From Caulobacter zeae (GTDB taxonomy: Bacteria > Pseudomonadota > Alphaproteobacteria > Caulobacterales > Caulobacteraceae): 64,000 bases of DNA. The translations under genes were made by a program, and so were the position numbers. The stretch spans positions 62,001 through 126,000 of the forward strand of contig NZ_PJRS01000010.1 in NCBI RefSeq assembly GCF_002858925.1, given 5' to 3'. The notes under the pieces are model-generated. The model was not told where the DNA came from. It saw nothing but the letters and a program-made list of their open reading frames with translations, and made no database searches. Numbering within the stretch: the first letter of the stretch is position 1; every line of letters starts with the position of its first letter. Of this stretch, positions 35,601 to 55,392 are shown piece after piece.

Positions 35601-37613
35601 CTAAAGCACCAGGTCCTCAGGCTCGGCCAACGGGATGAACAGCGGCAGGCCGTCGTTGATCGCCTCCGTCCCGGCCCTGGTGGCGGCCAGGGGGTCGTGG
35701 TCCCGCAGACCATGGAAGTTCATGCCCGTCGCCTCCTCCAGATCCTTGATCGCGATCTGGAAGGTCCGATAGGCGCCGAGGCTGAAGCCCTCCACCGCCT
35801 CGCTGCGGTTGCGATCCTCCAGCAGCTTGCGGATCAGCTGGCCCTGGCTGAGCAGGTAGGCCGTCGCATGAAGGCGCCAGCCGTTCCCGACCTTGACGGG
35901 CATGACCGCGACCTTCCAGAACTCGAGCGGCACGCGGACGCCGCCCTCCTCGTCCAGATACTCGTAGTCGCCGTTGAGGACCGGGCCGGTGAAGACGCAG
36001 GCCCGGAAGCCCTCGCTGCGGCTGCTGTCGAGGATGTAGTTCTCCAGCCCCTGCCACAAGGTCTTGCCCTGGTTCAGCAGCGAGTGCTGCGGCGCCGAGT
36101 TCGTGTAGTGGAAGGTGTCGAAATTGGCCTGGGTCGCATCGGGCCCCCAGTTGGGGTCCTCGCGGCGGACCATGTGACCCCGGTCGATGGCCCGGTCTGC
36201 ATAGTGCTTGGCGGTGTACTGCGAGGCGGGATCGATGCGCGCATCGACGTACCACTTGTCGTCGCCGCGCTTGATGCGAACGGCTTTCCCGCCGTCGATA
36301 TTGACCGCGGTGGCGGCCGGCAGCTTCAGCGCCTCGGAGAACAGCACGCCGAAATGGGTGTAGCGCAGCTCGTGCGGCCGATCCGCCAGCGCGTCGTCGG
36401 GCTTCGCCAGCCCCGCGGCGACCGTGGCTTCGAGCTCGGGCCAGGGGACATCAAGCTCCGCGCCGACATCAAGCTCCGCCCCGAGGAAGTGCGGATCGTA
36501 GCCTCCCCGGTCCTTCAGGTCCGCCTTCCTGTGGACGCCGTCCGGCGCTTCGTCCCTGTTCTCCTTCAGCACCGCGCCGGCGACGGTGGTGCGAGCGCCG
36601 AACGCCAGGCGGCGCAGGGTGCCGGCCGAGACCGCGCTGTTGGCCACGCCGTACTCGCCGGCGAAGTGCAGGCCCACCACCGCCCGGCTTTCCAGGCTGA
36701 TCAGGGCCGAGCCCGACGCGCCGCCCGTCGAGGTGCAGTCGTGGCTGATGATGATGCCCGCGCTTGCCGGATGGGTGATCTGGCCGGGCGAGAAGCGCTT
36801 CACGTCGTAGAGACCGCGGAAGTACTGCTCCATGGCGGTAAGGTCGTTGCGCGTGTCGTAGGCGGGGTACCCGATCAGGGCCACCAGTTCGCCATGGACG
36901 GCTTCGTGATCGGCCAGTTCCAGGCGATCGGGCCACGACCAGTCGACGCCTTCCGGCCGCCCCACGCGCAGCAGGGCGACATCGGCCTCGGTGTCGTCCG
37001 CGAGGTACTCGATGGCGGTGACCGACGCATTGCGGGCGTCGTTGATCCTGGCGTCCACCTCTTCGTTGAAGTCGATGCTCGCGCCATAGCGGGCGCCCGT
37101 GTAGGGCGACCGGGTGAAGACGGCCTTGCCGTCGAGGTTGCGCTTGGCGACCAGCTTGGCGACGTGGCGGTTGGTGACGACCAGGGCGTCGTCCCTGTTG
37201 CGATCCACGATCCAGCCCGTGCCGCCCCAGGCCATCTCGTGGTTCACGAACTCGATCCGGCCCACGGAGGGGATGGAGGGTTCGACACTCTTGATCTGAC
37301 CGACGATCGTGTTCGGAAACTCCTTCAACAGCTCCGGCTCGATGACCACGGCGTTGTTGCGCACGACCAGCGGCGGGCGGCCCGTCATACGCACGATCGC
37401 CTCCAGCGCCAGGCTGTTGACGCCAATGCCCTCGAGCCTGCCCGGCCCGACCTCCAGGGCGCGCGCCAGTGTCTGGGTATCGAGAATCGGGGCGTTCAGG
37501 CCCAGATTGTGCAGATGCTGGCCGCCGCCGTTGGCCAGGGTTTCGATCGTCCTGCTCCGGCGCGGCAGCAGGCTCGCCAGCCTGTTCCGGCTTTCTTCCA
37601 ACTTGGTGCTCAT
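35601..37613 (-). CDS. Trypsin-like protease fused to DRGH nuclease
   Basis: The 670-residue protein combines three parts. The N-terminal region (1-115) is helical and unassigned. A trypsin-like domain (about 120-340) has the triad His150 (TNRHV), Asp211 (EADVALLRV) and Ser300 (GGASGSALI), with GLHFAG after it. The C-terminal part (about 410-640) is a DNA/RNA non-specific endonuclease: DRGH with His480, TNSAPQHSLLNQG with Asn505 and Asn514, and Glu524. Its start overlaps the STAND gene stop (ATGA). No signal peptide is seen. I infer that activation of the protease, or of its NTPase partner, licenses the nuclease. Confidence 0.88.
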   Translation of the reverse strand: MSTKLEESRNRLASLLPRRSRTIETLANGGGQHLHNLGLNAPILDTQTLARALEVGPGRLEGIGVNSLALEAIVRMTGRPPLVVRNNAVVIEPELLKEFPNTIVGQIKSVEPSIPSVGRIEFVNHEMAWGGTGWIVDRNRDDALVVTNRHVAKLVAKRNLDGKAVFTRSPYTGARYGASIDFNEEVDARINDARNASVTAIEYLADDTEADVALLRVGRPEGVDWSWPDRLELADHEAVHGELVALIGYPAYDTRNDLTAMEQYFRGLYDVKRFSPGQITHPASAGIIISHDCTSTGGASGSALISLESRAVVGLHFAGEYGVANSAVSAGTLRRLAFGARTTVAGAVLKENRDEAPDGVHRKADLKDRGGYDPHFLGAELDVGAELDVPWPELEATVAAGLAKPDDALADRPHELRYTHFGVLFSEALKLPAATAVNIDGGKAVRIKRGDDKWYVDARIDPASQYTAKHYADRAIDRGHMVRREDPNWGPDATQANFDTFHYTNSAPQHSLLNQGKTLWQGLENYILDSSRSEGFRACVFTGPVLNGDYEYLDEEGGVRVPLEFWKVAVMPVKVGNGWRLHATAYLLSQGQLIRKLLEDRNRSEAVEGFSLGAYRTFQIAIKDLEEATGMNFHGLRDHDPLAATRAGTEAINDGLPLFIPLAEPEDLVL
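36447..36482. repeat. Tandem 18-bp duplication in the protease-nuclease linker
   Basis: Two copies of an 18-bp unit (GACATCAAGCTCCGCGCC, second copy with one mismatch) lie back to back in the linker between protease and nuclease domains. They encode the repeated GAELDV GAELDV (residues 378-389). It looks like a recent in-frame duplication and does not disturb the catalytic motifs. Confidence 0.7.
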
Positions 37614-40600
37614 GACCTGTCCGTCCCTTGGGGTTCGATTGCCAGGATCGCCAAAGCGGGCACGAAAGCGGCGGGGATCCAGCGCCGCGAAAGCTTGGAG
37701 GCCGCGCGCTGGGCCTGCTCGCGAGGCTCCTTCGGCGACGCTTGAGCGAGATCTTCCCTCAGCCGATCGAGCTTGGCGGCGCGCAGGATCCGCGCCATTC
37801 CGACCTCGCCGCCGGCCCAAGCCGCCAGTTGGGCGCGCGCGGCCTCGCCGGGCGAAGCGCCGCCAGACAGGTCCTCGAGGCGGTCCTCGGTGACGACGTC
37901 GAGACCGGTCTCCACGCCCTGCCAGTTGCGCGGCGGTCGCCCATAGCGCCACCAGCCCGCGGCGGTGCTGCGCCAGCGCTCGGCGCTGCGGCCGATGCTC
38001 CGCAGGTCCTGGTCGCCTAGCAGAAAGCCGGCCGCCGACAGCCATTCGGCCGTGAGCCCCAGCGCCGACAAGGTAGCGGCCGGCGCGGCGGGGTCGTGGC
38101 GCAGGGCCGCGAACTCCGGAAAGGCCGCGACCCGGGCGTTCAGCATGTCGTGGAGGCGTCCGTCACGCCGGTCGCGCAGCAGCCACTCGCCGAGATCGTC
38201 ATACGGCGACAGGATGGCCATCGCCTGGGCGTCCCTCGCCTGGGAAAAGAAGGAACGCGCCTCGGCCGCCGGCGCCGGGTCTATGCGCCGCCGCCGCTCC
38301 TCGGCGATCAGGAGCGCGCTCTGCAGATCCTCGCGGGGCGCATCGAGCGACCAGAGCGCCTGGACCGCGGCGACGGTGTCGGTGCGTTCCGGCAGTAGGC
38401 GTTGAGGCGCCGCGGCGAACCCCAAGGCGCCGGCGGCCAGGTTGGCCTTGGAGGCCATGATCAGCCGCGTCGTTCGATCGCGCCTGTCCTCGTTCCCCGC
38501 CTCGCCGAACCAGCGCCGCAGATCGGCGAACTTGAATTCGGCCCGCATCTCCAGCCGAACCAGCGCCGCTTCCGGCCAGGCGTCGAACAGGGCTTCGTCC
38601 CATGGACGAGACCAGGCCCGCTCGTCCGCCAACCGCCGGGCTTCACGCCAGCGACCGGTCCGCCAGAGCAGGACCAGCGCCGCCTCGGCCGCTTCGCCGA
38701 CGGGATCGATGGAGGCGGGACGAAAGACGTTCTCGTAGAAGGAAATCGCCTCGGTCAGGTCGCCCCTGCCGATCAGCATCCGCAGCTCCCCGGCCGCTTC
38801 GGCCGAGACCGGGCCCGCCGCTGCGGCGGCGTAGCCGCGCCCCTCGTAGCTTCGCTCGCCCCTGGCTCTCAGCACCGCGTCGCGGGCGGGCGCGGGTAGA
38901 TCGTCCAGGTCGTTCTGCTCGAAGGCGATGCCCGCTTCCAGGTTCATGCCCTTCAGCGCGTCGTCCTCCTCCCAGCGCGTGGCCTGGAGCCGGTGGTAAA
39001 GGCTCTCGGCGGCCGCCCAGGGCGCGGCCTGGCGCGAAAACCATCGGGCCGCGCGCCTATGCAGCTTGTGGGCGAGGTCGGACCCCTCTTCGTAAAGCTT
39101 GCCCGCCAGCCGTCGACGGATGTCGCGGTGAGGCTCCAGCCAGCCGGCGGCGGACTGCCCTCCGATCAGCCAGGTCTGCTCCTTGAGACCCGCCCACAGG
39201 TCGGCGGCATCGACCGCGCTCAGCCGCCTGCGAACAACGACTGGCGCGATGACCTCGCCCAGCAGCCTGCTGTCGAAGCGGCGAAACAAGGGGACGAAGC
39301 GCGCTATCTTGCCGTGACGGCCGCCCAGGCGCGATTCCAGGCTTCGATAGAGGGTGACGGTCGCGCCTTCATCCCTTTCCAGGCCGGCCGCGCCCTCGCG
39401 CCGGGCGACCGCGCCCAGCAGGCGCAGCCGCATGGGGTCGCCGTCGGCGCGCTGGATGATCGCGCCCCACAGCTGCGGCGGCGTCTGGGACTGCGCCAGC
39501 AGGGCCGCGGCGTCCGTCTCCGTCAGACTGTCGAGGGCCAGCGGCACGGCCACCCGGTCCTGGACCGGCTCCAAGGCGTCTCCTCGACCGGCCGCGACAA
39601 CCACCAACGGACCCAAGCCGGCCCTGCGCAGTTGGTCGAGCCATTCGAACAGCTGGCCCGGATGGGTTTCACCGCGGCCGCGCAGCACCTCCAGCGTATC
39701 CAGCACGATCACCAGCCTGCGCTTGGAATCGCGCAGATAGTCGGAGAGCGCTTCGATCAGGGCGTACGGCAGAAAGCCTCGGCCTCTGCCGCCCTTGACC
39801 CTGGCTTCCCGCGTGGAGACCGCCTCGAGGCGCGCCGCGCGCAGTTCGGCGGCGATTTCCGGCGCCTGGCTGGCGACTTGACGCGCCAGTTCGAGGCTGA
39901 GTCCCAGGCGATCCAGCACGTCCAGGCTGGCTCGATCGAAATCCAGCCTCGCCACGACGACATTCACGCCAAGCCCGGCCACCTGCCGCAAGGCATGCTC
40001 CAGAAGCGTCGACTTGCCGATCGCGGGCAGGCCGCTGACATAGAGCGCACGGACCCGGCCTTGCCTGTCCTCCGGCGCCCGGATCCAATCGACCAGCGCC
40101 TGGGACAGGTCCTCGCGCCCATGGAAGCCGTCCTCGAGCAGCAGGTCGCCGCGGCGCTTCTGGTCGGCGCGGCTCAGGGCCGCCTGCACGCGCGCCAGCA
40201 GGGAAGCCGCCGGTGCGAACCCTCCGCTCCATTCCAGCGCCGCCGCCAGCCTGGGCAGATCGGGCAGGGCCCCGTCCCTTCCCGCCTCCGTCGCCTCCAG
40301 CGCGGCCGCCACCGCGGCGCTCGAGAAATCGCCCCTGCCGTCCAACGCGTCGAGCAGATCGTTCGTCGCCGGATCCATGCCCTGTTTGCGGCGCCAGAGC
40401 TTGGCGACCTCGAGCAGGCCCTGATCGGACAGCCGCTTCAGGTCCCAGGCGCGTTCGCTGGCGCGCAGCAGCCACGCCCCCGCCTTTCCGACGCCGGTGT
40501 CGCAGGCCGCCGCCAGCGCCGCGGACACCGAGACGGCCAGGTCCAGCGGCTGGTCCGCGCCGAACGCGCCCGCCGCGCGCAGCGCGTCGCCCGGCGCGAA

Positions 40601-40744
40601 GGGACCTGAAAGGGCCGCGTACTCACGCGCGAACCCGATCGCCTCCTCGGCGCCGGCCTCCATCACCGTCAGCGAAGGCGCCGCAGCATCCAGTTCGGGA
40701 AGCGGCGGTTCCAGCTCCGGCGGCGGGGGATCGGAAACATTCAC
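37610..40744 (-). CDS. STAND-type P-loop NTPase (conflict-system switch)
   Basis: The 1044-residue protein starts at a GTG whose GTGA overlaps the upstream protease stop. The first 190 residues are Pro-rich and then helical. A FHGREDLSQALVDWI pre-motif (207-221) leads to Walker A GLPAIGKST (238-246) and Walker B LVIVLDTLEVL (344-354; Asp349, Glu352). The AAGRGD after it fits a sensor/arginine position, and a winged-helix-like region follows. The C-terminal 500 residues are helical repeats, likely the sensor or TPR-like arm. Such STAND NTPases act as ligand-triggered oligomeric switches. Its stop overlaps the nuclease-fusion start. Confidence 0.85.
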   Translation of the reverse strand: MNVSDPPPPELEPPLPELDAAAPSLTVMEAGAEEAIGFAREYAALSGPFAPGDALRAAGAFGADQPLDLAVSVSAALAAACDTGVGKAGAWLLRASERAWDLKRLSDQGLLEVAKLWRRKQGMDPATNDLLDALDGRGDFSSAAVAAALEATEAGRDGALPDLPRLAAALEWSGGFAPAASLLARVQAALSRADQKRRGDLLLEDGFHGREDLSQALVDWIRAPEDRQGRVRALYVSGLPAIGKSTLLEHALRQVAGLGVNVVVARLDFDRASLDVLDRLGLSLELARQVASQAPEIAAELRAARLEAVSTREARVKGGRGRGFLPYALIEALSDYLRDSKRRLVIVLDTLEVLRGRGETHPGQLFEWLDQLRRAGLGPLVVVAAGRGDALEPVQDRVAVPLALDSLTETDAAALLAQSQTPPQLWGAIIQRADGDPMRLRLLGAVARREGAAGLERDEGATVTLYRSLESRLGGRHGKIARFVPLFRRFDSRLLGEVIAPVVVRRRLSAVDAADLWAGLKEQTWLIGGQSAAGWLEPHRDIRRRLAGKLYEEGSDLAHKLHRRAARWFSRQAAPWAAAESLYHRLQATRWEEDDALKGMNLEAGIAFEQNDLDDLPAPARDAVLRARGERSYEGRGYAAAAAGPVSAEAAGELRMLIGRGDLTEAISFYENVFRPASIDPVGEAAEAALVLLWRTGRWREARRLADERAWSRPWDEALFDAWPEAALVRLEMRAEFKFADLRRWFGEAGNEDRRDRTTRLIMASKANLAAGALGFAAAPQRLLPERTDTVAAVQALWSLDAPREDLQSALLIAEERRRRIDPAPAAEARSFFSQARDAQAMAILSPYDDLGEWLLRDRRDGRLHDMLNARVAAFPEFAALRHDPAAPAATLSALGLTAEWLSAAGFLLGDQDLRSIGRSAERWRSTAAGWWRYGRPPRNWQGVETGLDVVTEDRLEDLSGGASPGEAARAQLAAWAGGEVGMARILRAAKLDRLREDLAQASPKEPREQAQRAASKLSRRWIPAAFVPALAILAIEPQGTDRS

Positions 40745-42492
40745 GACCGGTCCTCCTGGTCGTCGAGCCACTCGGCCAGCCTCTCGCGCACGACGGCCAC
40801 GATCTCGACGCTGTGGACGATGTCGAAGACGCCGTTCTGCTGAGGCAAGTTCTTGAGCGCCCGGTTCGTGATCTGCCGAACGCCGACGTCCCCCAGGTCC
40901 AGCTGCAAGGCGCGCCCCGCGCGCTCGACAAGGATCTCGACCTCGCGGCGCTTGATATGGCCTACATAGTCCACGACCAGGCCGGCCGGCCCCTCGCCAA
41001 CGCCCGCCCCAGCGTCGGCGAACTCCGCGCCCGGGGTGCTGATAGTCTCGAAGCCGGCAATCACCATCCGCAGTCGCGGTTGCTTGAGCGCCGCGCCCAC
41101 GAACGCCTCGAAAGCGATCCGCTCGCCTTCGGTCAGCCCCGCGGCCGGGTTCTCGAAAAAGAACCACAGGAGTCGGTCGGGACCTTTCGCCAGAACCGCA
41201 GCGTCCAGCGCCTGCGCCAGCCGCCGAGCCTCGTCGCCAGCGGCCGCCTCGGGCGTCGTGTCGCCGGCCCGCGCCCCCTCCGGCGCCACATCGGGCTCCA
41301 GCGTCAGGCCGGCCTCGGCGGCGCGCCGGCGAACCTGCCCCAGCAGGTCCTGCAGGGGTTGGTCGAAGCCCAGGCGGATCAGGACGTGACGGCCCGGGTC
41401 ACGCTCCAGCACGTTCTCCAGCAGCGCCGCCGAAAAGGCCAAGCCCGCGGTTCCCGCCTTGACGTCCAGGCGACTGACCCGCAGGCCGCGAACGCGTGCG
41501 CCGGGGCGCGAGGCCTCCGCCACCCCTTCGAAGAAGAGATCGCGGCCGATGACCAACTGGCCATCGAGCGTATCGGTCAGGGACCACAGGAACCTGGGCG
41601 CGACGTCGGTCCGCACCTGCTCCATGACCGGCCCATGGAAGCGGGCCAACGGCACAAGCCGGCGCGCCAGGGCCCACCGCCCCTGGTGGATGCCCACCAG
41701 TTCGTAGCGTGTATTGACGCAGGCCGCCCCGGACGAACCGCCGTCGGTGGCGCTGTCATGCGGAACACGAGCCTCGAAGCCGACGATGGGGTCGACGCGG
41801 CCGACGCCCCAGCCCATTGGACGCCCCTTCGGGAAGTCGAGGACGAACACGTTGGCCTGCGACGGCAGCCTGGGCGCGACGTCCGGCACGCGCAGGAAGT
41901 TCAGCCGCATGCCGTCCGGGCGGCTCAACCGCAACAACGCCACGTCGTGACAGTCGACGAAGTCGGCGTCGTTGGCCGGAAACTGGTTGGCGAACTCCGC
42001 GATCGTGCAGGGCGACAGGTAATGGCTGACCTTGAGCACGCTGCGCCGCGTCTGGTCGGCGAGCAGCACGCTGATCGGCTCGCGGATTGGATCGACGCTG
42101 CCGGGCGCTCCGCTGGCGATCACGTGCCAAGCCGTCAGCACCAGGCTGGGCCCGATCAGGCAGCCCGATCCGGTGATGTTGTCGCCCAGCACGATCCGGC
42201 AGGCCGCCGCCTTTCCGACCCGCTCGAAGGCGCTGAAATCGACGACGCGCCGGTCCATGGGCGCTGCGGTCTCGCGCCCGGCCAGCGCCTCGCCATACGC
42301 TTCGAGCAGCCCCTGCTTCTCCAGCCGGTCAGCCAGCATGCTCTCCAACGACATGCCGCGTTCCTCGGCCACGGGCCTCAGCGCTTCTAGGGTCACGGGA
42401 GGCTGAGCGCCCCCCTGGATGGCCTTCAGAGCCTGCTCGGCGCGCACGAGATCGTCCCGTATGGCGTCCTCGATATCCGTCCTGCTGACCAT
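40741..42492 (-). CDS. Trypsin-like protease with possible inactive-STAND core
   Basis: The 583-residue protein has an N-terminal helical segment (1-85). A trypsin-like domain with triad His123 (TAWHV), Asp183 (HDVALLRL) and Ser254 (GGSSGAAC) comes next. From about 385, the sequence HVLIRLGFDQPLQDLLGQV, then WFFFENPAAGLTEGERIAF and PRLRMVIAGFE, resembles a P-loop-less STAND core (iSTAND) as described in bacterial conflict systems. That match is by eye only. The start at 42492 follows TTGGGGGATGCG; the RBS decides it against a longer frame. A 20-bp palindrome lies just upstream of the start. Confidence 0.8.
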   Translation of the reverse strand: MVSRTDIEDAIRDDLVRAEQALKAIQGGAQPPVTLEALRPVAEERGMSLESMLADRLEKQGLLEAYGEALAGRETAAPMDRRVVDFSAFERVGKAAACRIVLGDNITGSGCLIGPSLVLTAWHVIASGAPGSVDPIREPISVLLADQTRRSVLKVSHYLSPCTIAEFANQFPANDADFVDCHDVALLRLSRPDGMRLNFLRVPDVAPRLPSQANVFVLDFPKGRPMGWGVGRVDPIVGFEARVPHDSATDGGSSGAACVNTRYELVGIHQGRWALARRLVPLARFHGPVMEQVRTDVAPRFLWSLTDTLDGQLVIGRDLFFEGVAEASRPGARVRGLRVSRLDVKAGTAGLAFSAALLENVLERDPGRHVLIRLGFDQPLQDLLGQVRRRAAEAGLTLEPDVAPEGARAGDTTPEAAAGDEARRLAQALDAAVLAKGPDRLLWFFFENPAAGLTEGERIAFEAFVGAALKQPRLRMVIAGFETISTPGAEFADAGAGVGEGPAGLVVDYVGHIKRREVEILVERAGRALQLDLGDVGVRQITNRALKNLPQQNGVFDIVHSVEIVAVVRERLAEWLDDQEDRS

Positions 42493-42501
42493 CGCATCCC
42501 C

Positions 42502-42521
42502 CAAGCTCAAGATTGAGCTTG
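42502..42521. promoter_or_regulatory. Perfect palindrome upstream of protease operon
   Basis: CAAGCTCAAGATTGAGCTTG has 9-bp arms around GA and sits 10 bases before the ATG at 42492, inside the leader or promoter of the three-gene operon. The form fits an operator for a dimeric repressor. No regulator gene is obvious in the locus, so an autoregulatory component or host factor is possible. Confidence 0.5.
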
Positions 42522-42626: not shown

Positions 42627-43184
42627 ATGCCCTTCGTGACCCTCCAGCCCCCTCTGGAGAAAGGCCTGGAGGCCTATCCCCAGGTCATGCCCAAGCCGCT
42701 GGTGGTGGCCATCCTGGACAGTGAGGACGAGAAGGAGGGGCGCACCTGCGCCATCGTGACCTTCGCCTTCCGCTACATTCACCCGGCCTCAGGCGCGCAG
42801 GTCGACGTCCCCGAAGGCTATGTCACCGACTTCGCTTCGATCCCGGCGGCCGCGCGAGGCGTGTTCCCGCCGTTCGGCAGGCACGCCAAGGCCGCGGTCC
42901 TGCACGACTGGCTCTACCTGATCGGCGAACCTGGGAAGCGTCCCTTCGCCGACCGCATCTTCCTGGACGCGATGGACGACCTGGGCGTCAGCCTTCCGCG
43001 CCGCACGATCATGTACCAGACGGTGCGCGTGGCGGGCGGCGGGGCCTACGCCAAGGAGGCCGACACCTGGTCGAAGGCCTTCGGCGACTGGCGCACCGGC
43101 GAGCGGCGCACGCCGTCGTTCACGGCGGACGCCCACTACCAGCAGCACTGGCCCGTCCCGCCGCGCCCGGACTACCGCCCCTAG
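42627..43184 (+). CDS. DUF1353 family protein
   Basis: The 185-residue protein has the DUF1353 core VPEGYVTDFASIPAAARGVF followed by GRHAKAAVLHDWLY, with conserved Asp and His residues. DUF1353 is best known from phage genomes and has no established enzymatic role. Here it lies on the plus strand between the two protease operons, divergent from one, and shares its stop sequence (CTAG) with the convergent membrane-protein gene. It may be a part of the system or a phage remnant. GAGGAG precedes the ATG. Confidence 0.8.
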   Translation: MPFVTLQPPLEKGLEAYPQVMPKPLVVAILDSEDEKEGRTCAIVTFAFRYIHPASGAQVDVPEGYVTDFASIPAAARGVFPPFGRHAKAAVLHDWLYLIGEPGKRPFADRIFLDAMDDLGVSLPRRTIMYQTVRVAGGGAYAKEADTWSKAFGDWRTGERRTPSFTADAHYQQHWPVPPRPDYRP

Positions 43185-44723
43185 GCGCAGGGCCGGACCG
43201 GCGACGCCGTGGGCTTGGCGGTGAAGTCGACCCAGACCTCCAGCACATAGGTCCGATCGGGCTGCATGCCGGCGATACGCTGGCAGGACGGGCTCGCCGC
43301 CGAGCGCCCCGGCCAGGTCGCCCCTCAACCGCGTCGCGAAAGGCGTTTCCTCGTCTCGGAAATAGCGGACCTGAGCGATGGGGATCCGATTATCGCTGCG
43401 GTTCTCGGGCTCCGGCACGTCGTAGTCCAGGTCGAGCAGCCGCCGCCGCAGGGCGGCCGCCTGTTCCGGCCGCCCCCGGTACTGGATGTAGACCGTGATC
43501 GCCTGCCGTACGTGCAGCCAGTATTGCGGGCCCGAAGGCCGCGCGATCGCGAACGGGGCGTCGAGAGCCGTCAGCAAGGCGCCGTCGCCGACCACCCCCG
43601 TACGCGGCGCAGAGTTGTAGTTCTCGTCCGGATAGCCTTGCCGAAGCGCGATATTGGCCCGCGCCCGATAGACGCCGTCCTTGACTACGCCTCCCGGCGT
43701 CACCCGCTCGCCGTCCGGATAGCCCGCCAGCAGCGCCTGCGACTGCCCGCCGATCCAGATGTAGCCCTCGACGCCGGGCGGCTCGCCGGCCTTGGCGACC
43801 TCGGCCTTCGCCTGGGTCGTGTCCGAGGGCTGGATGAGTTCATCGACGGTGTTTTTCAGCGTGGTGTTGTTCTTCTCGAGGGTGACGTTGCTGCGTTCCG
43901 TGGCTTTCAGCTCGCGGTTCAGGAAAAGCGTCGTCCAGACGAAGCCGCCGATCACCAGGGCCGCGCCGGCCACGGCGCCGGCCAGCCCGACGCGACGGGC
44001 GGCCCGGCGCCGGAGGCTGGCGTCGATATAGTCGGCGATGCCGGGCGAATGCTCGCGATAGGGCAAGGCCTGCGAAAGCGCGCGCCCCCGCAGAAGGTCG
44101 TCCACCCGCCCGTAGCGCGCCCACAGGACGCCCGACTTCTCCAGCTTCAGGACCATCGCCTCGTCGAGCGCGCGATCGGCGCTCCAGCCGTCGAGCTGCG
44201 GCCAGTTGGCGATCAGCAGCGCCCTGTGGGCGATGACCAGCCCCTCGTCGCCCGGCCCCTCGACGATGACGCCCTCGTCCTGAAAGCGTCGCCGGACTCG
44301 ATCGAGATCGGGATCGCCTCGCGCGTCGTCCGGCCCGACCGGCCCTCCCAGCAGTCGCAGGAACAGCTTGCGCGCCTGGTCCTGCTCGTCCGGGGCCAGG
44401 CCGTCATAGACCGTGCGCGCCCGCTCCTCGACGGCCGCCCCCGCCTCGGGATCGGGCGCGTCCAGGCGCAGCAGGTCCGGGAACGCCTGGCCCGGCAAGC
44501 CGGCCAGGGCGCTGGTCCAGTAGTCGACGACGCCCTGGGCCGCGTCGCGCTCCGCCGGATCCTGCAGCCATTTGCCGAGCGCCGACGCCGTGTGGCGCAG
44601 CTCCGTGGCCTGCTGCCGCCGCTCTTCGTCGCCCATGTCGCTCCAGCCCTGCATCAGGCGCAGGTGCCGGGCCCGGACAGCGGGCAGCGACAGGGTCGCG
44701 GAGTATCGCAAGGCGCTCGCCAT
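43181..44723 (-). CDS. nSTAND-like winged-helix membrane protein, apparent frameshift
   Basis: The main frame gives a long nonsense tail over the DUF1353 gene. Omitting one C in the CCC near 43290 restores a 513-residue product ending VWVDFTAKPTASPVRPCA at a TAG (43181-43183). Residues 95-240 resemble the winged-helix region after an nSTAND1 NTPase (LFLRLLGGP, IVEGPGDEGLVIAHRALL, WPQLDGWSADRA), but no P-loop is present. One TM helix (246-268), a coiled coil (269-296) and SH3b- and LytR_C-like regions follow. Annotation is on the repaired frame; whether the indel is biological or a sequence error is open. Confidence 0.68.
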
Positions 44724-46043
44724 CTACGTCTCCTTCAACAGCTCTTCGATGGGGCGGCGCAGCGCGCTGATGCGGTTGCACTGGTCGAGAACGGCCTTGT
44801 CGACGCCGAAGAACTGCAGGCGGCCGATGCGCACGAAGGTCCGCAGGGCGCTGACGGCGGCCCCGGGCGCAGCCCCGGCCAGGCTCTCGTCGACATACAG
44901 GCGGGCGCCGTCCATGTTGGCGTCCCACATGTCAGGCGCGGTGCGGCGCAGGGTGTCCAGCGCGCGCGACAGCGTGCTCCAGTGCGCCTTGAGCATGGCC
45001 CGGCTCGGCTCGCTCGCCTCCAGTTCCCGCTCGAGCAGCCACAGCTCGGCGTCGACGCCCTGCCAGTAGCGGTGCAGCGACAGGGTCTGGCGCAGCACCA
45101 GATCGAGATTGACCAGCTCGTGGGACGCCGCGTCCAGCGCCTGCAACGCCGCCGGCGAGGAGAAGATCTCCAGCTTGGCGTTGTCCTGCAGGAACTTCAA
45201 CACGTCGTTGAACGGAATGCGATCGGCCGCCGCGACGATCTGCTGGTCGTAGGCGATCAGCTGCATCCGCAGGATGCCCCGCAGCGTGAACAGCCCCTCG
45301 CGCAGCGCGTCGGGATCGGCCTGCCCCTGTTCGATCTGGCCGATCGCCGCCTTGAAGTCATCGACCCAGGCCCGGTCGACATCGACCGTGTCGGCGAGAT
45401 GCTCTTCCAGCTGCCCCAGCGCCTGCTTGAGGGACCAGACGTGCATCTTGACGGTCGAGACGGTCTCGAAAGTCAGCGCCGCGCCCGACGCCAGCAACGG
45501 TCCGAGCTCGGCATAGGAGCTGGTCTGCACGGTGTGCAGGATGTCGTGCACCCGCTTGGCGAAGCTCAGGCGCCGCAGGTTCTGGTCGACCAGCCCCAGG
45601 TCATCGCGCGCCAGCTGGCCGATCTTCTGCGACAGGCCCCTTTCCCTGATGCCGTCGAGCACGTTGGAGATCACGGCCACCCGCTCCCCTTGCGCCGCCC
45701 GCTCGGCGGCCAGGAAGTCGGCCTCCGTGACCAGGGCCAGGACTTCGGGGCTGCGGCCCCCCACCCAGAGGCGCAGGTCGCGGTTGCCGGGCAGGGCCAG
45801 GAACAGCGCCGCCACGATCTTGAGGACGGCGTCGGGCCCTTCAGCCTCGACCAGCCTGAACGCCCCGTCGACGAGAACGAGCATCGGCTCGTCGTCGCCG
45901 CCGACCAGCATGCCCAGGCTCGCCTGCATGACGCCCTCGAACACGGCGTTGAAGGCCAGGTAGTCCTGGCGCCGACCACCGCCATAGGCGCGCGCCACGA
46001 TCGTCTGCAACGCCTCGTCCTGCAGCGAGGGGGGCGAGGCCAC
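44724..46043 (-). CDS. Helical protein of the protease locus, unknown family
   Basis: The 439-residue protein starts at GTG (TAGTG overlap with the EAD-protease stop) and ends directly before the next ATG, so the three genes of this operon are coupled. It opens with LQDEALQTIVARAYGGGRRQ, has a MLVLVDGAFRLVEAEGP strand-helix that could be a Walker B-like remnant, and becomes a long helical bundle (about 200-420). No P-loop, protease or nuclease motif is seen. A role as sensor or adaptor of the neighbouring winged-helix protein is inferred from coupling only. Confidence 0.62.
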   Translation of the reverse strand: MASPPSLQDEALQTIVARAYGGGRRQDYLAFNAVFEGVMQASLGMLVGGDDEPMLVLVDGAFRLVEAEGPDAVLKIVAALFLALPGNRDLRLWVGGRSPEVLALVTEADFLAAERAAQGERVAVISNVLDGIRERGLSQKIGQLARDDLGLVDQNLRRLSFAKRVHDILHTVQTSSYAELGPLLASGAALTFETVSTVKMHVWSLKQALGQLEEHLADTVDVDRAWVDDFKAAIGQIEQGQADPDALREGLFTLRGILRMQLIAYDQQIVAAADRIPFNDVLKFLQDNAKLEIFSSPAALQALDAASHELVNLDLVLRQTLSLHRYWQGVDAELWLLERELEASEPSRAMLKAHWSTLSRALDTLRRTAPDMWDANMDGARLYVDESLAGAAPGAAVSALRTFVRIGRLQFFGVDKAVLDQCNRISALRRPIEELLKET

Positions 46044-47128
46044 TACAGCGCCGCCAGGTCATGCCGCTCGGCGATCGCCCGGGCGACGAGGTGCAGAGGC
46101 ACGGCCTGGTTGAAGCGTGGAACCTGGGCTGTATCGGCGGCGTGGTGCAGGCCGATGACGTCCAGGTCGGCGCTGAGCACGGGCGAGCCCGAAGCCCCCG
46201 GTTCGGTCGTGACATTGTAGCGATAGCGCAGGCCATTGGCCGGAAACGCCGTCACCACGCCGTAGGCGACCGACAACGGATCCCCGCCCGGGTGCTGCGC
46301 CACAAGCGCCACGTCGCCCGGGACCACGACCGGGGGCGTACTGGCAAGATCAAGCGACTGGCGCTCGACCGGGATGGGCCCGGCCAGTTTCAGAAGCGCG
46401 AAATCCAGCTCCCCCGCGGCCGGATCTCCGGTCCCGGTCACGTCGCTCTGCGAATACGGCCGGCTGTCCACATGCCAGTCCTCGGCCAGGCGCGCCTCGA
46501 CGCCCGCCGTCGTGCTCCGGTCGGCGTTCCGGCGGTAGTCGAACCGGCAGACGAGGCCCGCGCCCAGGGACGGGTCGGCGATGGCGGCCGAAACCACATG
46601 GTGGTTGGTCAGCACATGCCGGCGGCCGACCAGGAAGCCCGTGCCCCGCGGTCCGCCCGCATCCTCGATCCGGCAGATCGCGCCCGCCAGTCGCGTCAGC
46701 CTGGCCTGGAATTGCGTGAAGTCGACGATCCTGGAGCGTTTCGCGACCAGGGCCTCGAGACGGTCCTGGGGCAGCGGCGCGAGGCTCACCCCCGCGACGT
46801 ACGGCGCCCCGGCCGCCTCCAGGTCGGGCAAAAGGCGCTCGGCGGCGGCGCGCAGATAGGGATTGCCGGGCTTGCCCGTCCAGGCCAGCGCCAGCAGGTC
46901 CCGCGCCCGGCCGGCCTCCTCCGCCCAGTCCAGCAGCCTCCCGAACACCTTCTTGCTGCCGCCGGCAACGCCGACTTCCTGCTCGATCCGCGCACCCCAG
47001 CTGAAGCCCAGGCGCCGGTCCAGCGTCTCGATGTCATAGGCGCGCCAGAGGGATTCGTGGATCTGCGCCAGATCGCCCGGCTGCAAAGGCCCCTGCTCGA
47101 GCCCCGCCGGCAAGTCCAGATCACTCAT
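46043..47128 (-). CDS. EAD1-like adaptor plus trypsin-like protease
   Basis: The 361-residue protein has an N-terminal helical domain (LQPGDLAQIHESLWRAYDIE, LDRRLGFSWG, then FGRLLDWAEEAGRARDLLAL) with the pattern of effector-associated domain 1, a death-like adaptor that recruits effectors to NTPase sensors. The trypsin-like domain (about 140-355) has His177 (TNHHV), Asp242 (LDFALLKL) and Ser313 (GASGSPV). The start at 47128 is preferred to 47152 because GGGGGGCGC precedes it. It leads a coupled operon that also encodes a TM winged-helix protein. Confidence 0.85.
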   Translation of the reverse strand: MSDLDLPAGLEQGPLQPGDLAQIHESLWRAYDIETLDRRLGFSWGARIEQEVGVAGGSKKVFGRLLDWAEEAGRARDLLALAWTGKPGNPYLRAAAERLLPDLEAAGAPYVAGVSLAPLPQDRLEALVAKRSRIVDFTQFQARLTRLAGAICRIEDAGGPRGTGFLVGRRHVLTNHHVVSAAIADPSLGAGLVCRFDYRRNADRSTTAGVEARLAEDWHVDSRPYSQSDVTGTGDPAAGELDFALLKLAGPIPVERQSLDLASTPPVVVPGDVALVAQHPGGDPLSVAYGVVTAFPANGLRYRYNVTTEPGASGSPVLSADLDVIGLHHAADTAQVPRFNQAVPLHLVARAIAERHDLAAL

Positions 47129-47189
47129 GCGCCCCCCGGACCGCGTGACCATTTCCGGCCGCCGAGCCTATCAGGAGGCGCCACCTCGC

Positions 47190-47202
47190 AAAACGACGTT
47201 TT
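47190..47202. promoter_or_regulatory. 13-bp palindrome upstream of EAD-protease operon
   Basis: AAAACGACGTTTT is a perfect palindrome 62 bases upstream of the 47128 start, between that gene and tRNA-Arg. It may be an operator for the operon. AT-rich palindromes near tRNAs can be fortuitous, so the call is weak. Confidence 0.3.
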
Positions 47203-47319
47203 CTATCTTTGGGTGCAAACCCGAAAAGACGCGCCCGGCGCGCGATACGACGGCGCGCCGGCGATCAGAACCGCGCGCTTCAATCTGTCGAAAACCGAAA
47301 AATCTCTAGGGGAGAAGAA

Positions 47320-47396
47320 TGGCGCGCCCGGAACGATTCGAACGTCCGACCCTCAGATTCGTAGTCTGATGCTCTATCCAGCTGAGCTACGGGCGC
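47320..47396 (-). tRNA. tRNA-Arg(ACG), minus-strand copy
   Basis: The reverse strand gives acceptor GCGCCCG/CGGGCGC, discriminator G, encoded CCA and anticodon loop CTACGAA (anticodon ACG). The 77-base sequence is identical to the plus-strand copy at 55252-55328. Its 3' end faces the protease/nuclease locus, as for a tRNA used as an integration site, though no second copy of the 3' end is seen at the far side of that locus. Confidence 0.96.
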
Positions 47397-47674
47397 GCAC
47401 TGCCTTGCGGCGAGGCGGGGGAGATACCCCGTACCCCTGGGGTGTGCAAGCGTCTTGTCGCAAGAAAGTCGCCGAGTTCGGTGGATAACTGCGCGAACCC
47501 TTGGCGCATAAGGATTTGTGGGCGTGAAAAAGATGTCGCAGGGGCGTGCGGCGGCGATTTTTCGCGAGCGTGGTGGCGGCGTCGGGGGCATGGTTCGTCG
47601 AATCTCCGCTGTCCGAGTCGGATTTCCGACGCGCCGGGCGGCCTGTTCCGCGCCCTCGCCCGAAGGATCCGCCC

Positions 47675-49429
47675 ATGCGCCTGCCCGTTCTCGCCGCCCT
47701 CGCCGTCCTGACCGCTTGCGGAGGGATCGCCGGCTGCGCGACCGCGATGGGGCCGCAGGCGGCGGCGACCGTCCCCAGAACCGCCCCGGCCACCGCCGGC
47801 GCAGCCGCCGCGTACAGCCCGCGCGGCATGGTGGCCTCGGCCAATCCGCTGGCGACGGAAGCGGGCCTGCGGGTGCTGCGCGAGGGCGGCTCTGCCGTCG
47901 ACGCCGCCGTGGCCGTGCAGGCGGTGCTGGGCCTGGTCGAGCCGCAGAGCTCGGGCCTGGGCGGCGGTTCCTTCATGGTCTTCTACGACGCCAAGACCGG
48001 CAAGGTGACGGCCTATGACGGCCGCGAGACCGCTCCGGCTGGCGCGACGCCTGCCCTGTTCTTGGGCGAGGACGGCAAGCCGGTGTCGTTCATCTCAGCG
48101 GTGCTGTCGGGCCGCTCGACCGGCGTGCCGGGCGCGGTGGCCATGCTGGCCCAGGCCCAGAAGGAGCATGGCGCCATCGGCTGGGATCGCCTGTTCCTCG
48201 ACGCCGAAAAGCTGGCCGACCAGGGCTTTGTCGTCAGCCCGCGCCTGGCCTCGATGATCAACGGCCGTTCGCCCCAGGGCCAGACGCCGGACGCGGCGGC
48301 CTATTTCACCAAGCCGGACGGCCAGCGCTACCAGGCCGGCGAGGCCCTGAAGAACCCGGCCTACGCCGCCACCGTGCGCCGCCTGGCCGCCGAGGGCCCC
48401 TCGGCGCTGTATGAAGGCCCGCTGGCGGAAGCCATCGTCGCCAAGCTGCACGAGGGCGAGCGTCCCTCGGCCATGACCCTGGCCGACCTGAAGGCCTATA
48501 AGCCACGCAGCGCCGACGCCCTGTGCCGGCCGTGGAAGGTCTACAGCGTCTGCGTGCCCAACCCGTCGTCGAGCGGCGTCTCCTTGTTGCAGGCGCTGCT
48601 GATGCTCGAGCACACCGACATTTCCAAGCGCAACCAGAACGACCCGATCGCCTGGACCCAGATCGCCGAGGCCGAGCGGGTGATGTACGCCGACCGCGAC
48701 CGCTATGTCGGCGATCCGGGCAAGGTGAGCGTGCCGGTCGAGGGCCTGCTGGAGCCGGCCTATGTGAAGGAACGCGCCAAGCTGATCGGCGAGACGGCCG
48801 GCCCGGCCCCGAGCTTCGGCCTGCCCAAGGGCGCGCCCAAGGTCGGCCCGGACTCGACGATCGAGCCGGGCGGCACGACCCACTTCGTCATCGTCGATGC
48901 GGCGGGCAACGTGGTGTCGATGACCACCACGGTCGAGAGCATCTTCGGCTCGGGTCGGATGGTCGGCGGCTTCTTCCTCAACAACCAACTGACCGACTTC
49001 AACTTCGCGCCGATCGACAAGGACGGCCTGCCCGGCGCCAACGCCGTGGCCGGCGGCAAGCGCCCGCGCTCGTCGATGTCGCCGGTGGTGGTGCTGGACA
49101 ACAAGGGCAAGTTCCTGGCCGCGGTCGGCTCGCCGGGCGGCTCGGCCATCCTGTCCTATAACCTCAAGGCCATGGTCGGAGTGTTCGACTGGGGCCTGTC
49201 GATGCAGGACGCCGTGGCGCTGCCGAACCTGGTGGCGCGGGGGGATACGTTCTCGGGGGAAGTGAACCGCTTCGGCCCCGAGCTGACCGCCGCCCTGCAG
49301 GCGCGCGGCGTGATGGTCAAAGAAGGCCAGAACGAGAATTCGGGTCTGCACGGCGTGATCGTCCGCGCCGGCGGCAAGCTGGAGGGCGGCGCGGATCCGC
49401 GTCGCGAGGGCGTGGCCAAGGGCCTGTAA
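47675..49429 (+). CDS. ggt: Gamma-glutamyltransferase (GGT)
   Basis: The 584-residue protein begins with a signal peptide and a lipobox-like LTAC (MRLPVLAALAVLTACGG), so it is exported and probably lipidated. It matches GGT by SANPLATEAGLRVLREGGSA, GLGGGSFMVFYD and the small-subunit catalytic Thr in GGTTHFVIVD (residues about 405-415). GRMVGGFFLNNQLTDF and GGKRPRSSMSP are the glutamate-binding loops. GGT cleaves itself into two subunits at that Thr and hydrolyses extracellular glutathione. Confidence 0.95.
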   Translation: MRLPVLAALAVLTACGGIAGCATAMGPQAAATVPRTAPATAGAAAAYSPRGMVASANPLATEAGLRVLREGGSAVDAAVAVQAVLGLVEPQSSGLGGGSFMVFYDAKTGKVTAYDGRETAPAGATPALFLGEDGKPVSFISAVLSGRSTGVPGAVAMLAQAQKEHGAIGWDRLFLDAEKLADQGFVVSPRLASMINGRSPQGQTPDAAAYFTKPDGQRYQAGEALKNPAYAATVRRLAAEGPSALYEGPLAEAIVAKLHEGERPSAMTLADLKAYKPRSADALCRPWKVYSVCVPNPSSSGVSLLQALLMLEHTDISKRNQNDPIAWTQIAEAERVMYADRDRYVGDPGKVSVPVEGLLEPAYVKERAKLIGETAGPAPSFGLPKGAPKVGPDSTIEPGGTTHFVIVDAAGNVVSMTTTVESIFGSGRMVGGFFLNNQLTDFNFAPIDKDGLPGANAVAGGKRPRSSMSPVVVLDNKGKFLAAVGSPGGSAILSYNLKAMVGVFDWGLSMQDAVALPNLVARGDTFSGEVNRFGPELTAALQARGVMVKEGQNENSGLHGVIVRAGGKLEGGADPRREGVAKGL

Positions 49430-49452
49430 CTCAGATTGCGAAAAAGCTCGTC

Positions 49453-49484
49453 ATCCCGGAAAGCGCGCAGCGCTTATCCGGGAT
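49453..49484. repeat. Interspersed palindromic repeat
   Basis: ATCCCGGAAAGCGCG pairs with CGCTTATCCGGGAT, forming an imperfect hairpin just after the ggt stop. It is of the type widespread in this group's intergenic regions. It may serve as a terminator. Another hairpin-rich stretch, CCCCCTTCGGGGG, follows at about 49660. Confidence 0.5.
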
Positions 49485-49678
49485 CCAAGGGCGGCCGCAA
49501 TGCGCCGGCCAGCGCTCGGGTGATGGCTTCAGCCCGAGCGCCCAGTCTCCTGGGGCCCGGCCCTACCGCCCGCTGACGCGAGCGTCCGGCCGGAATGACG
49601 ATGTTGGGAATAGGGGATGCGTTGCGTCCCCCTCAGTCGGCTTCGCCGACAGCTCCCCCTTCGGGGGAGCGTCTTGAA

Positions 49679-50110
49679 TTACGGCAGCGGACGCGGCTTG
49701 CGATCTTCGCCGATGGCGACGAACGTGAACACGCCCTGCGTCACCTTGTGGGCCTTTTCGCCGTCGCGGCGGCGGCGCCAGGCCTCGACCTCGACCTTCA
49801 GCGAGGTGCGTCCCGTATGGATGATACGGGCGAACAGGCTGACCTCGTCGCCGACGAACACCGGGCTGATGAACACCATGCCGTCGACGGCGATGGTCGC
49901 GCAGCGGCCGGCCGCCCGGTGGAAGGCGATCGAGGCCGCGGCCAGGTCCATCTGCGACAGCAGCCAGCCGCCGAAGATGTCGCCTTCGGGGTTGGTGTCG
50001 GACGGCATGGCGATGGCGCGCAGGACCGGCGGGTCGTGCGGCCACTCGGCGGCTTCCCACGCCTTGGCGAGGGTCTCGGCCCGGGGGCCGGTCAGCGAGG
50101 AATCGTCCAT
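49679..50110 (-). CDS. YciA-like acyl-CoA thioesterase (hotdog)
   Basis: The 143-residue hotdog protein carries AIAMPSDTNPEGDIFGGWLL (NPEGDIFGG containing the catalytic Asp), QMDLAAASIAFHRA and the VDGMVFISPVFVGDEV strand-helix of YciA-type thioesterases. It hydrolyses acyl-CoA of broad chain length. It is a single minus-strand gene 15 bases after the zinc-finger gene, so the two may form an operon. Confidence 0.9.
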   Translation of the reverse strand: MDDSSLTGPRAETLAKAWEAAEWPHDPPVLRAIAMPSDTNPEGDIFGGWLLSQMDLAAASIAFHRAAGRCATIAVDGMVFISPVFVGDEVSLFARIIHTGRTSLKVEVEAWRRRRDGEKAHKVTQGVFTFVAIGEDRKPRPLP

Positions 50111-50125
50111 CTTGGCTAGCCGGCC

Positions 50126-50407
50126 CTAGTGGCCGCTCGGGCCTTCGTAGACGCCGGGAGCCAGGCGCTCGTCCTCGTCGTGGCCGGCATGCTCGGCGGC
50201 GATGAAGCGGCGGTCGCAATAGGGGCAGTCGACCGAGCCGGCCGCGCCCATCTCCAGCCACACGCGCGGGTGGCCCAGCGCGCCGCCGACGCCGTCGCAG
50301 GCGATGCGGTGCGAATGGACGTGGACGATCTCCGGCGCCGGACCGGCGTTGACGGCGACGTCCATGGCGGTGGGGGCGGTCGGAGCTTCGGACTTGGCCT
50401 TGGCCAT
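50126..50407 (-). CDS. CHCC zinc-finger protein
   Basis: This 93-residue protein has VHSHRIACDGVGGALGHPRV and VDCPYCDRRF, the C-x-H...CxxC zinc-binding pattern of the zf-CHCC family related to NDUFS6/complex I subunits. The first 25 residues are disordered. In alphaproteobacteria the domain is associated with NADH dehydrogenase assembly or structure. It is encoded 15 bases before the thioesterase gene. Confidence 0.85.
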   Translation of the reverse strand: MAKAKSEAPTAPTAMDVAVNAGPAPEIVHVHSHRIACDGVGGALGHPRVWLEMGAAGSVDCPYCDRRFIAAEHAGHDEDERLAPGVYEGPSGH

Positions 50408-50551
50408 GGGGGAACTACCTTCGAATTCTGAGCGCGGCCTTGGCTAGGCGGCGAACGAGGCATACCTATGCGACGCGTCGGCGCCGCGTCAATTCGACGA
50501 AGCCGCGCACGCCTCTGTTTTCAAAGCCTTCCGCCCCCGATTGGACGCTTC

Positions 50552-51514
50552 ATGGACCTGCCTGCCTACGCGATCGAAGCCGAGGGCCTGTTCAAGACCT
50601 ATCCCGCCACCAAGACGGCGCCGGAAAAGCGCGCCCTGAACGGCATCGACCTGAAGGTGCCGCGCGGCTCGATCTTCGGGCTCCTTGGTCCTAATGGGGC
50701 GGGCAAGTCGACCTTCATCAACATCCTGGCCGGCCTGACCCGCAAGTCGAGCGGCACGGTGAAGATCTGGGGCCGCGACATCGACGAGCGGCCGCGCGAC
50801 GCCCGCGCCGCCATCGGCGTGGTGCCGCAGGAACTGGCCGCCGACGTCTTCTTCACCCCGCGCGAGTCGCTTGAGGTGCAGGCCGGCTATTACGGCGTGC
50901 CCAAGAGCGAGCGCCGCACCGACGAGCTGCTGAACGCCCTGGGCCTGGGCGACAAGGCCAATGCTTACGTCCGCCAGCTGTCGGGCGGCATGAAGCGGCG
51001 CCTGATGGTGGCGAAAGCCATGGTCCACCAGCCGCCGGTGCTGATCCTCGACGAGCCGACCGCCGGCGTCGACGTCGAGTTGCGCCGCCAGCTGTGGGAA
51101 TATGTGAAGGGCCTGCACGAGTTGGGCGTGACCATCGTGCTGACCACCCACTACCTGGAAGAAGCCCAGGAGCTGTGCGACCAGATCGCCATCGTCAACC
51201 GCGGCGAGGTGGTGGTGTGCGAGCCGACCCCGACGCTGCTGGGCCGCATGGACATCCGCAACGTGGTGGTGACGCCGGAGAGCCCGCTGGCGACGCCGCC
51301 GGCGCTGGAAGGCTTCGACACCAAGGGCCGGGCGGGCGGCGCCTTCTCGGTCAGCTACCGCACCGGCCAGTCCAGCGTCGAGCACGTGCTGGCCGCCGTG
51401 CGCGCGGCCGGCGTGTCGATCAAGGACATCGCGACGGAAGATCCCGACCTGGAGGATGTGTTCGTGTCGCTGACCTACGGCGATCCGAACGCCAAGGATC
51501 CGCTGAAGACCTGA
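50552..51514 (+). CDS. ABC transporter ATPase
   Basis: This 320-residue ATPase shows Walker A GLLGPNGAGKST, signature LSGGMKRRLM, Walker B LILDEPTAGVD, and the H-loop THYLEEAQELCD. A C-terminal region with about 80 extra residues, typical of CcmA/NatA-type exporters, follows. It lacks a permease partner in the window; ATPases of this type often pair with an ABC-2 permease encoded downstream or elsewhere. The ATG is set by the first Met before LPAYAIEAEGLFKTY. Confidence 0.9.
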   Translation: MDLPAYAIEAEGLFKTYPATKTAPEKRALNGIDLKVPRGSIFGLLGPNGAGKSTFINILAGLTRKSSGTVKIWGRDIDERPRDARAAIGVVPQELAADVFFTPRESLEVQAGYYGVPKSERRTDELLNALGLGDKANAYVRQLSGGMKRRLMVAKAMVHQPPVLILDEPTAGVDVELRRQLWEYVKGLHELGVTIVLTTHYLEEAQELCDQIAIVNRGEVVVCEPTPTLLGRMDIRNVVVTPESPLATPPALEGFDTKGRAGGAFSVSYRTGQSSVEHVLAAVRAAGVSIKDIATEDPDLEDVFVSLTYGDPNAKDPLKT

Positions 51515-51578
51515 TCCCTCTCCCCTTGCGGGAGAGGGTGGCCCGCGAAGCGGGTCGGGTGAGGGGTCGCACAAACAG

Positions 51579-51614
51579 AAACGCCGCGACAGCCGATCAG
51601 CTGTCGCGGCGTTT
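51579..51614. terminator. Strong intrinsic terminator
   Basis: AAACGCCGCGACAGC pairs with GCTGTCGCGGCGTTTT around CGAT, and the T-run follows on either strand. It lies between the convergent ABC and nucleosidase genes, flanked by the paired GGGAGAGG/CTCTCCC repeats. It likely ends both transcripts. Confidence 0.8.
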
Positions 51615-51679
51615 TGTGTCTGAGAGACCCCTCATCCGTCGGCTACCGCCGACACCTTCTCCCGCAAGGGGAGAAGGAT

Positions 51680-52585: not shown

Positions 52586-52722
52586 GGAGAGGGCTTTCCG
52601 TGGTCGATTCGCGCGCACCCTAGCCCCGCGCGCGCCGACGCAGGAAGGCCCGGCGGCGAAGCTGTTGCATCCCCCGCCGCTTCCGACGATTTTCGCGCCG
52701 TTTTTGACGTAGCGGGGCAGGC

Positions 52723-53775: not shown

Positions 53776-53778
53776 GCC

Positions 53779-55095: not shown

Positions 55096-55153
55096 CCAAA
55101 ACCCTTTGCGCGAGCGCGGCTTTCAGCTAAGACCGCGCTTCCGCAAGGCGGAT

Positions 55154-55230
55154 GCACCCGTAGCTCAGCTGGATAGAGCGTTGCCCTCCGAAGGCAAAGG
55201 TCACACGTTCGAATCGTGTCGGGTGCGCCA
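55154..55230 (+). tRNA. tRNA-Arg(CCG)
   Basis: Acceptor GCACCCG/CGGGTGC, discriminator G and encoded CCA frame a 77-base tRNA with anticodon loop CTCCGAA (CCG). It is 21 bases upstream of the next tRNA-Arg, so the two form a small tRNA cluster. Confidence 0.96.
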
Positions 55231-55251
55231 GTCCTACTTGCCAAGAAATGC

Positions 55252-55328
55252 GCGCCCGTAGCTCAGCTGGATAGAGCATCAGACTACGAATCTGAGGGTC
55301 GGACGTTCGAATCGTTCCGGGCGCGCCA
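55252..55328 (+). tRNA. tRNA-Arg(ACG), plus-strand copy (island attachment site)
   Basis: Acceptor GCGCCCG/CGGGCGC, discriminator G, encoded CCA and anticodon loop CTACGAA (ACG) define this 77-base tRNA. It is identical to the minus-strand copy at 47320-47396. Its 3' half is repeated at 60073-60120, at the far end of the island, so this tRNA is the integration target. Confidence 0.96.
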
Positions 55329-55330
55329 TT
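55283..55330. repeat. attL: tRNA 3' end and flanking TT
   Basis: Bases 55283-55330 match 60073-60120 over 48 positions with a single mismatch (G at 55298 versus A at 60088). The last 32 bases are identical. This is the left end of the integrase-encoding island. Confidence 0.85.
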
Positions 55331-55392
55331 TTCTCCAGGAAAATCAATAACTTGCCCACCTCCCTGGGGCGTGGCCCGTTCTAAATCCGCGA

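Follow-up and report, generated by a model that had tools for sequence, protein, structure and literature searches.

LypC of Caulobacter zeae, a trypsin-like protease fused to an intact endonuclease domain, belongs to a LypABC operon linked to a predicted phospholipase gene

The gene studied here lies in a stretch of 64,000 nucleotides of C. zeae DNA (hereafter the window; contig NZ_PJRS01000010.1, positions 62,001 to 126,000) and, as judged from its sequence and surroundings, is lypC of a chromosomal LypABC operon (Table 1). LypABC has been described as a CARD-NLR-like system that lyses Caulobacter crescentus to release gene transfer agents (GTAs) (Banks et al., April 2026; PMC13236601). We consider it likely, with a probability of about three in four, that LypA and LypB act in sensing and licensing, that the LypC protease triggers lysis, that the product of a linked DUF1353 gene is the most plausible effector, and that the LypC nuclease is a second arm of defence. 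The identification of the gene is in itself ordinary, as its product has a closely related orthologue in the literature and the operon adds one member to a system already described. Added here are a linked gene of the phospholipase A2 (PLA2) family, a homologue that has lost its nuclease site, and the occurrence of LypABC independently of GTAs.

Table 1. Coordinates of the features in the window
Feature	Position	Strand	Description	Evidence
lypC	37613..35601	-	670 aa: N-terminal helical region, trypsin-like protease, linker, Endonuclease_NS	Pfam, alignment
LypC trypsin-like protease	36669..37223	-	residues 131-315; H150, D211, S300	Trypsin_2 E 3.3e-14
LypC Endonuclease_NS	35712..36392	-	residues 408-634; DRGH 477-480, N505, N514, E524	Pfam E 2.2e-45
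LypC linker duplication	36447..36482	-	18-bp tandem duplication GAELDVGAELDV, private to window genome	
lypB	40744..37610	-	NLR/STAND NTPase, 1044 aa, GTG start overlapping lypA stop	AAA_16 E 2.5e-11
lypA	42492..40741	-	583 aa: N-terminal helical (putatively CARD-like) domain, trypsin-like protease, degenerate ATPase domain	
Palindrome	42503..42520	.	perfect, AAGCTCAATCTTGAGCTT, 10 bp before lypA start; candidate operator	
DUF1353 gene	42627..43184	+	predicted phospholipase A2, 185 aa	PF07087 E 1e-29; PHROG 1158
TM protein	42789-44723	-	nSTAND1 C-terminal match	
439-aa protein	44724-46043	-		
EAD1-trypsin	46043-47152	-		

Both domain matches of LypC lie well past the Pfam cut-offs, and the seven catalytic residues H150, D211, S300, H480, N505, N514 and E524 were confirmed at these positions. 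Translation of the plus strand over the interval 35601..37613 yielded no comparable protein. When 14 homologues from Caulobacter, Rhizobium, Paracoccus, Rhodovulum, Nocardioides, Paenibacillus, Metabacillus and Peptoniphilus were aligned, all seven residues proved invariant; the set covers Alphaproteobacteria, Actinobacteria and Firmicutes. Because they are exactly placed and invariant in this set, the fused active sites are not due to chance, and the claim of an earlier note on this DNA that one chain carries both a protease triad and the full nuclease signature was confirmed. The predicted structure (mean pLDDT 67) shows two folded domains after a low-confidence N-terminal stretch of 100 residues. 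The modelled protease has a DegS/DegP/HtrA-type fold (VIA Z about 22), and the His-Asp-Ser triad within this HtrA/DegS double-barrel fold identifies it as a trypsin-like S1 peptidase. The protease alone fills the VIA-align matches listed, and the missing nuclease matches are no evidence regarding that domain. For the nuclease, Foldseek returned EXOG and the nuclease-like domain of autotaxin, while a profile comparison against the PDB returned EndoG/NucA. The fold check that the earlier note had proposed for this region thus succeeded in part, the predicted fold being that of the NUC/EXOG family. The active-site set of Endonuclease_NS (the DRGH histidine, the metal-ligand asparagine, the second asparagine and the glutamate) is complete in LypC. 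No signal peptide was seen in LypC upon inspection by eye.

The genes lypA, lypB and lypC are arranged in this order on the minus strand with a 4 bp overlap at each junction. LypB contains an intact P-loop (GLPAIGKST) and an intact Walker B motif (LVIVLDT) and gives AAA_16 and NACHT-related matches. The trypsin domain of LypA (Trypsin_2, E 2.6e-11) possesses an invariant triad (H123, D183, S254), and the best PDB match of the C-terminal part is a Walker-type ATPase. Residues 4-70 of LypA are predicted to be helical (pLDDT 60-81), although the whole model is poor (mean pLDDT 45); comparison of this N-terminus with known folds gave no specific match, the best PDB match being limited to the ATPase part. 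PADLOC and NCBIfam provided no specific model for LypABC. The palindrome in front of lypA is the sole site with zero or one mismatch in the whole window genome; it is kept in C. radicis, and one half of it is degenerate in C. vibrioides. In C. crescentus, lypABC is repressed by CdxB, and one half of the published CdxB consensus is poorly conserved (PMC13236601). The palindrome is a candidate operator, with CdxB perhaps as its ligand.

Banks et al. named C. crescentus, C. radicis, C. zeae and C. endophyticus as carriers of lypABC, described LypC of C. crescentus as a trypsin-endonuclease fusion and found that all three genes are needed for GTA-mediated lysis (PMC13236601). In our genome scan, the full-length identity of LypC was 82% with C. 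radicis and 74% with C. vibrioides, followed by Nocardioides agariphilus with 49%. The corresponding values for LypA and LypB, which are syntenic, are 92 and 90% in C. radicis, 65 and 63% in C. vibrioides and 38 and 35% in Nocardioides; for C. vibrioides, the identities of all three proteins hold over nearly their full length. C. vibrioides, the species in which LypABC was described, includes strain NA1000. Allowing for small numbering differences, S300, H480 and N514 of the window LypC are the counterparts of S296, H471 and N505 in the paper. The window genome also contains a GTA tail gene with a GTA_TIM match (PF13547, E 7.5e-137). We read the operon as orthologous to LypABC because of the three-gene synteny, the matching domain order and active sites, the invariant triad and the presence of the GTA gene. 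The two systems have gene order, domain layout, active sites, genus and a GTA-bearing host in common, whereas the linker duplication of LypC and the adjoining EAD1-protease/STAND cluster set the window apart. The earlier suggestion that the fusion is encoded together with a STAND NTPase as part of a cell-death type system proved correct.

By analogy with C. crescentus, the NLR-type ATPase LypB and the putatively CARD-like protease LypA would form a sensor and licensing complex that senses the trigger, with the requirement for all three genes carried over from that species. Proteolysis by LypA and LypC, which has been shown to be needed for lysis in C. crescentus, would by orthology be needed here as well. 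LypC would act as the second protease, and proteolysis would activate a downstream effector, most plausibly the divergently encoded, phospholipase-like DUF1353 protein. The LypC nuclease is probably not what bursts the cell; this intact domain would probably destroy nucleic acid, of the phage or of the host, in a second arm serving phage defence and not GTA release. Gating by the STAND protein is part of the published model and is a proposal there, and two-hybrid assays showed no interaction of LypC with LypA or with LypB (PMC13236601).

The earlier note had regarded the fusion as a suicide effector if gated by the STAND NTPase; in this reading, the activated protease would free or license the nuclease, leading to degradation of DNA and RNA and to cell death. 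The intact and strongly conserved nuclease site is compatible with such a function, as are the proposal that trypsin deploys NucA (Kaur et al., 2020; PMC7159879) and the related nuclease-protease logic shown for another nuclease fold in Hachiman/AVAST (Tuck et al., 2025; PMC12799240). However, the protease mutation S296A abolishes lysis in C. crescentus, whereas the nuclease mutants H471A and N505A and the double mutant lyse normally, and LypC of C. endophyticus has no nuclease at all (PMC13236601). Likewise, the LypC homologue of Paracoccus sp. MA (43% identity; plasmid, L054 13078-15054) has kept the protease triad but lost D477, R478, G479, H480, N505 and N514, leaving the glutamate as the sole catalytic residue of the nuclease; this strain has the whole lypABC operon, in which an S8 peptidase gene precedes lypA. 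The linker, moreover, contains no conserved cleavage site. Since the protease serine is essential and the nuclease residues are dispensable in C. crescentus, the suicide reading is upheld only in part and appears doubtful, and the nuclease as the killing activity is not supported in view of these mutants and natural variants. A distant cluster of two trypsins and an NLR protein is present in another GTA-bearing Caulobacter genome (G020), and searches of this cluster detected neither the nuclease nor DUF1353. Protease activity is constant across these systems, and the nuclease is an optional module.

Alternatively, the nuclease domain could be a non-catalytic, structural or scaffold part of LypC, with only the protease being of importance. 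The silence of the point mutants with respect to lysis and the destabilisation of C. crescentus LypC upon deletion of the domain (PMC13236601) would agree with this, and the Paracoccus sp. MA homologue indeed keeps the domain with a dead site. A mere scaffold is, however, difficult to reconcile with the invariance of H480, N505, N514 and E524 in 14 homologues across phyla and with the constraint on the nuclease, which is stronger than on any other domain of LypC. Its NG86 dN between the window and C. radicis is 0.052, and 0.106 between the window and C. vibrioides, compared with 0.086 and 0.153 for the protease; the ranges within Caulobacter are 0.05-0.11 and 0.09-0.16, respectively, and the values for the N-terminus and the linker lie far above both. 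The nuclease, having the lowest dN, is therefore constrained, although it is dispensable for GTA lysis in the laboratory, and we consider a purely structural role unlikely. It is highly improbable that LypC is a stand-alone nuclease toxin or a housekeeping nuclease without a functional tie to lypA and lypB. Paracoccus liaowanqingii and a plasmid of Pseudomonas aeruginosa, for example, do harbour LypC-like fusions with no lypA or lypB annotated nearby, but such independence is at odds with the 4-bp gene overlap, with the conservation of the operon in Caulobacter, Nocardioides and Paraburkholderia, and with the genetics of C. crescentus, where all three genes are required (PMC13236601).

The tandem repeat in the LypC linker is real, with 17/18 bases identical (36482-36447), but the suggestion that it marks a cleavage region could not be sustained. 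In the alignment, LypC has the duplication neither in C. radicis nor in C. vibrioides; the linker evolves fast, and no conserved cleavage site was found in it among the homologues. As a conserved cleavage site, the duplication was ruled out on the grounds that the two nearest orthologues do not have it.

In our preferred reading, with lysis triggered by the LypC protease, the most plausible effector is encoded divergently from lypA at a distance of 134 bp. The DUF1353 protein of the window keeps the His-Asp motif (H93, D94), followed by an ADxIF helix. For TtaP, a member of the DUF1353 family, phospholipase A2 activity has been proven, and the authors of that work expect it in further members as well (PMC11525133); by this analogy, the window protein is a predicted phospholipase A2. 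At the nucleotide level, the window and C. vibrioides are homologous from 43184 to 35627, i.e., from the stop of the DUF1353 gene through the end of lypC, and no homology was found outside these bounds within the stretch compared. The best match of a 3-kb stretch of the right flank in C. vibrioides is on a different contig of the window genome. The four genes therefore reside at different chromosomal sites in the two lineages and behave as one 7.5-kb unit. In addition, purifying selection acts on the DUF1353 gene (dN/dS about 0.2). In a survey of 75 genomes of the genus, all five close orthologues (71% or more) adjoin an operon with trypsin and NLR genes. Four of them lie next to lypABC; the fifth is on a plasmid of C. 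rhizosphaerae, where it adjoins a different operon, of a serine protease and an AAA ATPase. For none of 20 more distant DUF1353 genes were trypsin or NLR genes detected nearby (about 7 kb on each side, contig permitting), and none of six phage-type relatives from a viral scan adjoins such genes. The four cases beside lypABC include two near-identical species and two that share a locus, which leaves about three independent contexts. It speaks against an effector role that DUF1353 is absent beside lypABC in a further Caulobacter genome (G019) and in Paraburkholderia as well as from the cluster of G020, and that in the window it is not co-directional with lypABC. On a Bradyrhizobium barranii plasmid (L055 3743-8205), a DUF1353 gene with an apparent export signal adjoins a caspase-family gene.

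Banks et al. did not name the downstream lytic effector, but observed that the inner membrane of ghost cells had collapsed, and stated that phospholipases are employed by related CARD-NLR systems (PMC13236601). On these three grounds, DUF1353 fits the effector vacancy. We tentatively propose a four-gene system in which LypA/LypC proteolysis activates a cytosolic DUF1353 PLA2, and in which the inner membrane is ruptured by this enzyme and not by the nuclease of LypC; this is possible but falls short of being probable. The transposon screen in C. crescentus might have caught the DUF1353 gene if it were essential, and the text of that paper does not name it as a hit (PMC13236601). Nor does the text mention the gene in connection with LypABC, though it lies beside lypA in C. 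vibrioides too. If the proposal is true, DUF1353 would be the lytic effector missing from the work on C. crescentus. We know of no earlier protease-gated PLA2 of a bacterial NLR system, and DUF1353 would be the first. The published LypABC has no known executor, and the comparison of the window with C. vibrioides exposes a linked, constrained PLA2-family gene, a link that makes the mechanism of cell rupture by LypABC testable.

LypABC is not tied to GTAs, since the operon was found in a GTA_TIM-less Caulobacter, in Nocardioides and on a Paraburkholderia plasmid. The first of these genomes (G019, complete on a single contig; C1:586000-604000) has a complete lypABC with an intact nuclease site and no GTA_TIM match. 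The actinobacterium Nocardioides and the conjugative plasmid of Paraburkholderia also carry lypABC with an intact nuclease site. In the 75-genome survey, GTA_TIM was present in 56 genomes and a full-length or nearly full-length LypC in 5, while a search of 385 genomes of the class revealed no additional full-length LypA. This separability suggests an original, older role in defence, and the finding of lypABC and its intact nuclease site in an actinobacterium and in a Caulobacter that lacks the GTA marker bears on the view of GTA release as a secondary use of a defence system.

The CARD-NLR anti-phage family, of the type found in Lysobacter enzymogenes and equipped with gasdermin or another effector, includes variants with endonuclease and phospholipase effectors (PMC13236601). 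The window shares with it a putatively CARD-like protease, an NLR ATPase and a second protease, but has no gasdermin, a nuclease fused to the second protease, and a linked DUF1353 gene. The combination of trypsin and NucA has been catalogued as 'System 3', in which the partners are of the EAD1 or STAND/Death-like kind (Kaur et al., 2020; PMC7159879). Common to both are a fused trypsin-NucA of alphaproteobacterial origin and a STAND NTPase and an EAD1-trypsin nearby; in 'System 3', however, the STAND NTPase is fused to trypsin and a Death-like domain, whereas in the window LypA has a degenerate ATPase and LypB is a separate NLR protein. Hachiman/AVAST/canu are immune systems with protease-activated gated nucleases (Tuck et al., 2025; PMC12799240). 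They likewise pair a trypsin-like protease with a nuclease, which in their case is a separate proenzyme of the metallo-beta-lactamase fold and not a fused Endonuclease_NS domain as in the window.

A second protease-STAND cluster on the minus strand (42789-47152) adjoins lypABC. The TM protein in this cluster shows an apparent frame change near 43290, possibly a frameshift or an assembly error. Compared with C. radicis, the segment from 43206 to 55332, between lypABC and the tRNA-Arg genes (47320-47396, minus strand; 55252-55328, plus strand), appears to have been rearranged (inverted). The breakpoints of the apparent inversion lie close to one tRNA-Arg copy and to where the DUF1353 gene ends. 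In Paracoccus sanguinis (L005 8445-11797), a LypC-like fusion is divergent from a trypsin protein that is 36% identical to the EAD1-trypsin of the window, and the same pair of modules thus lies near each other in both.
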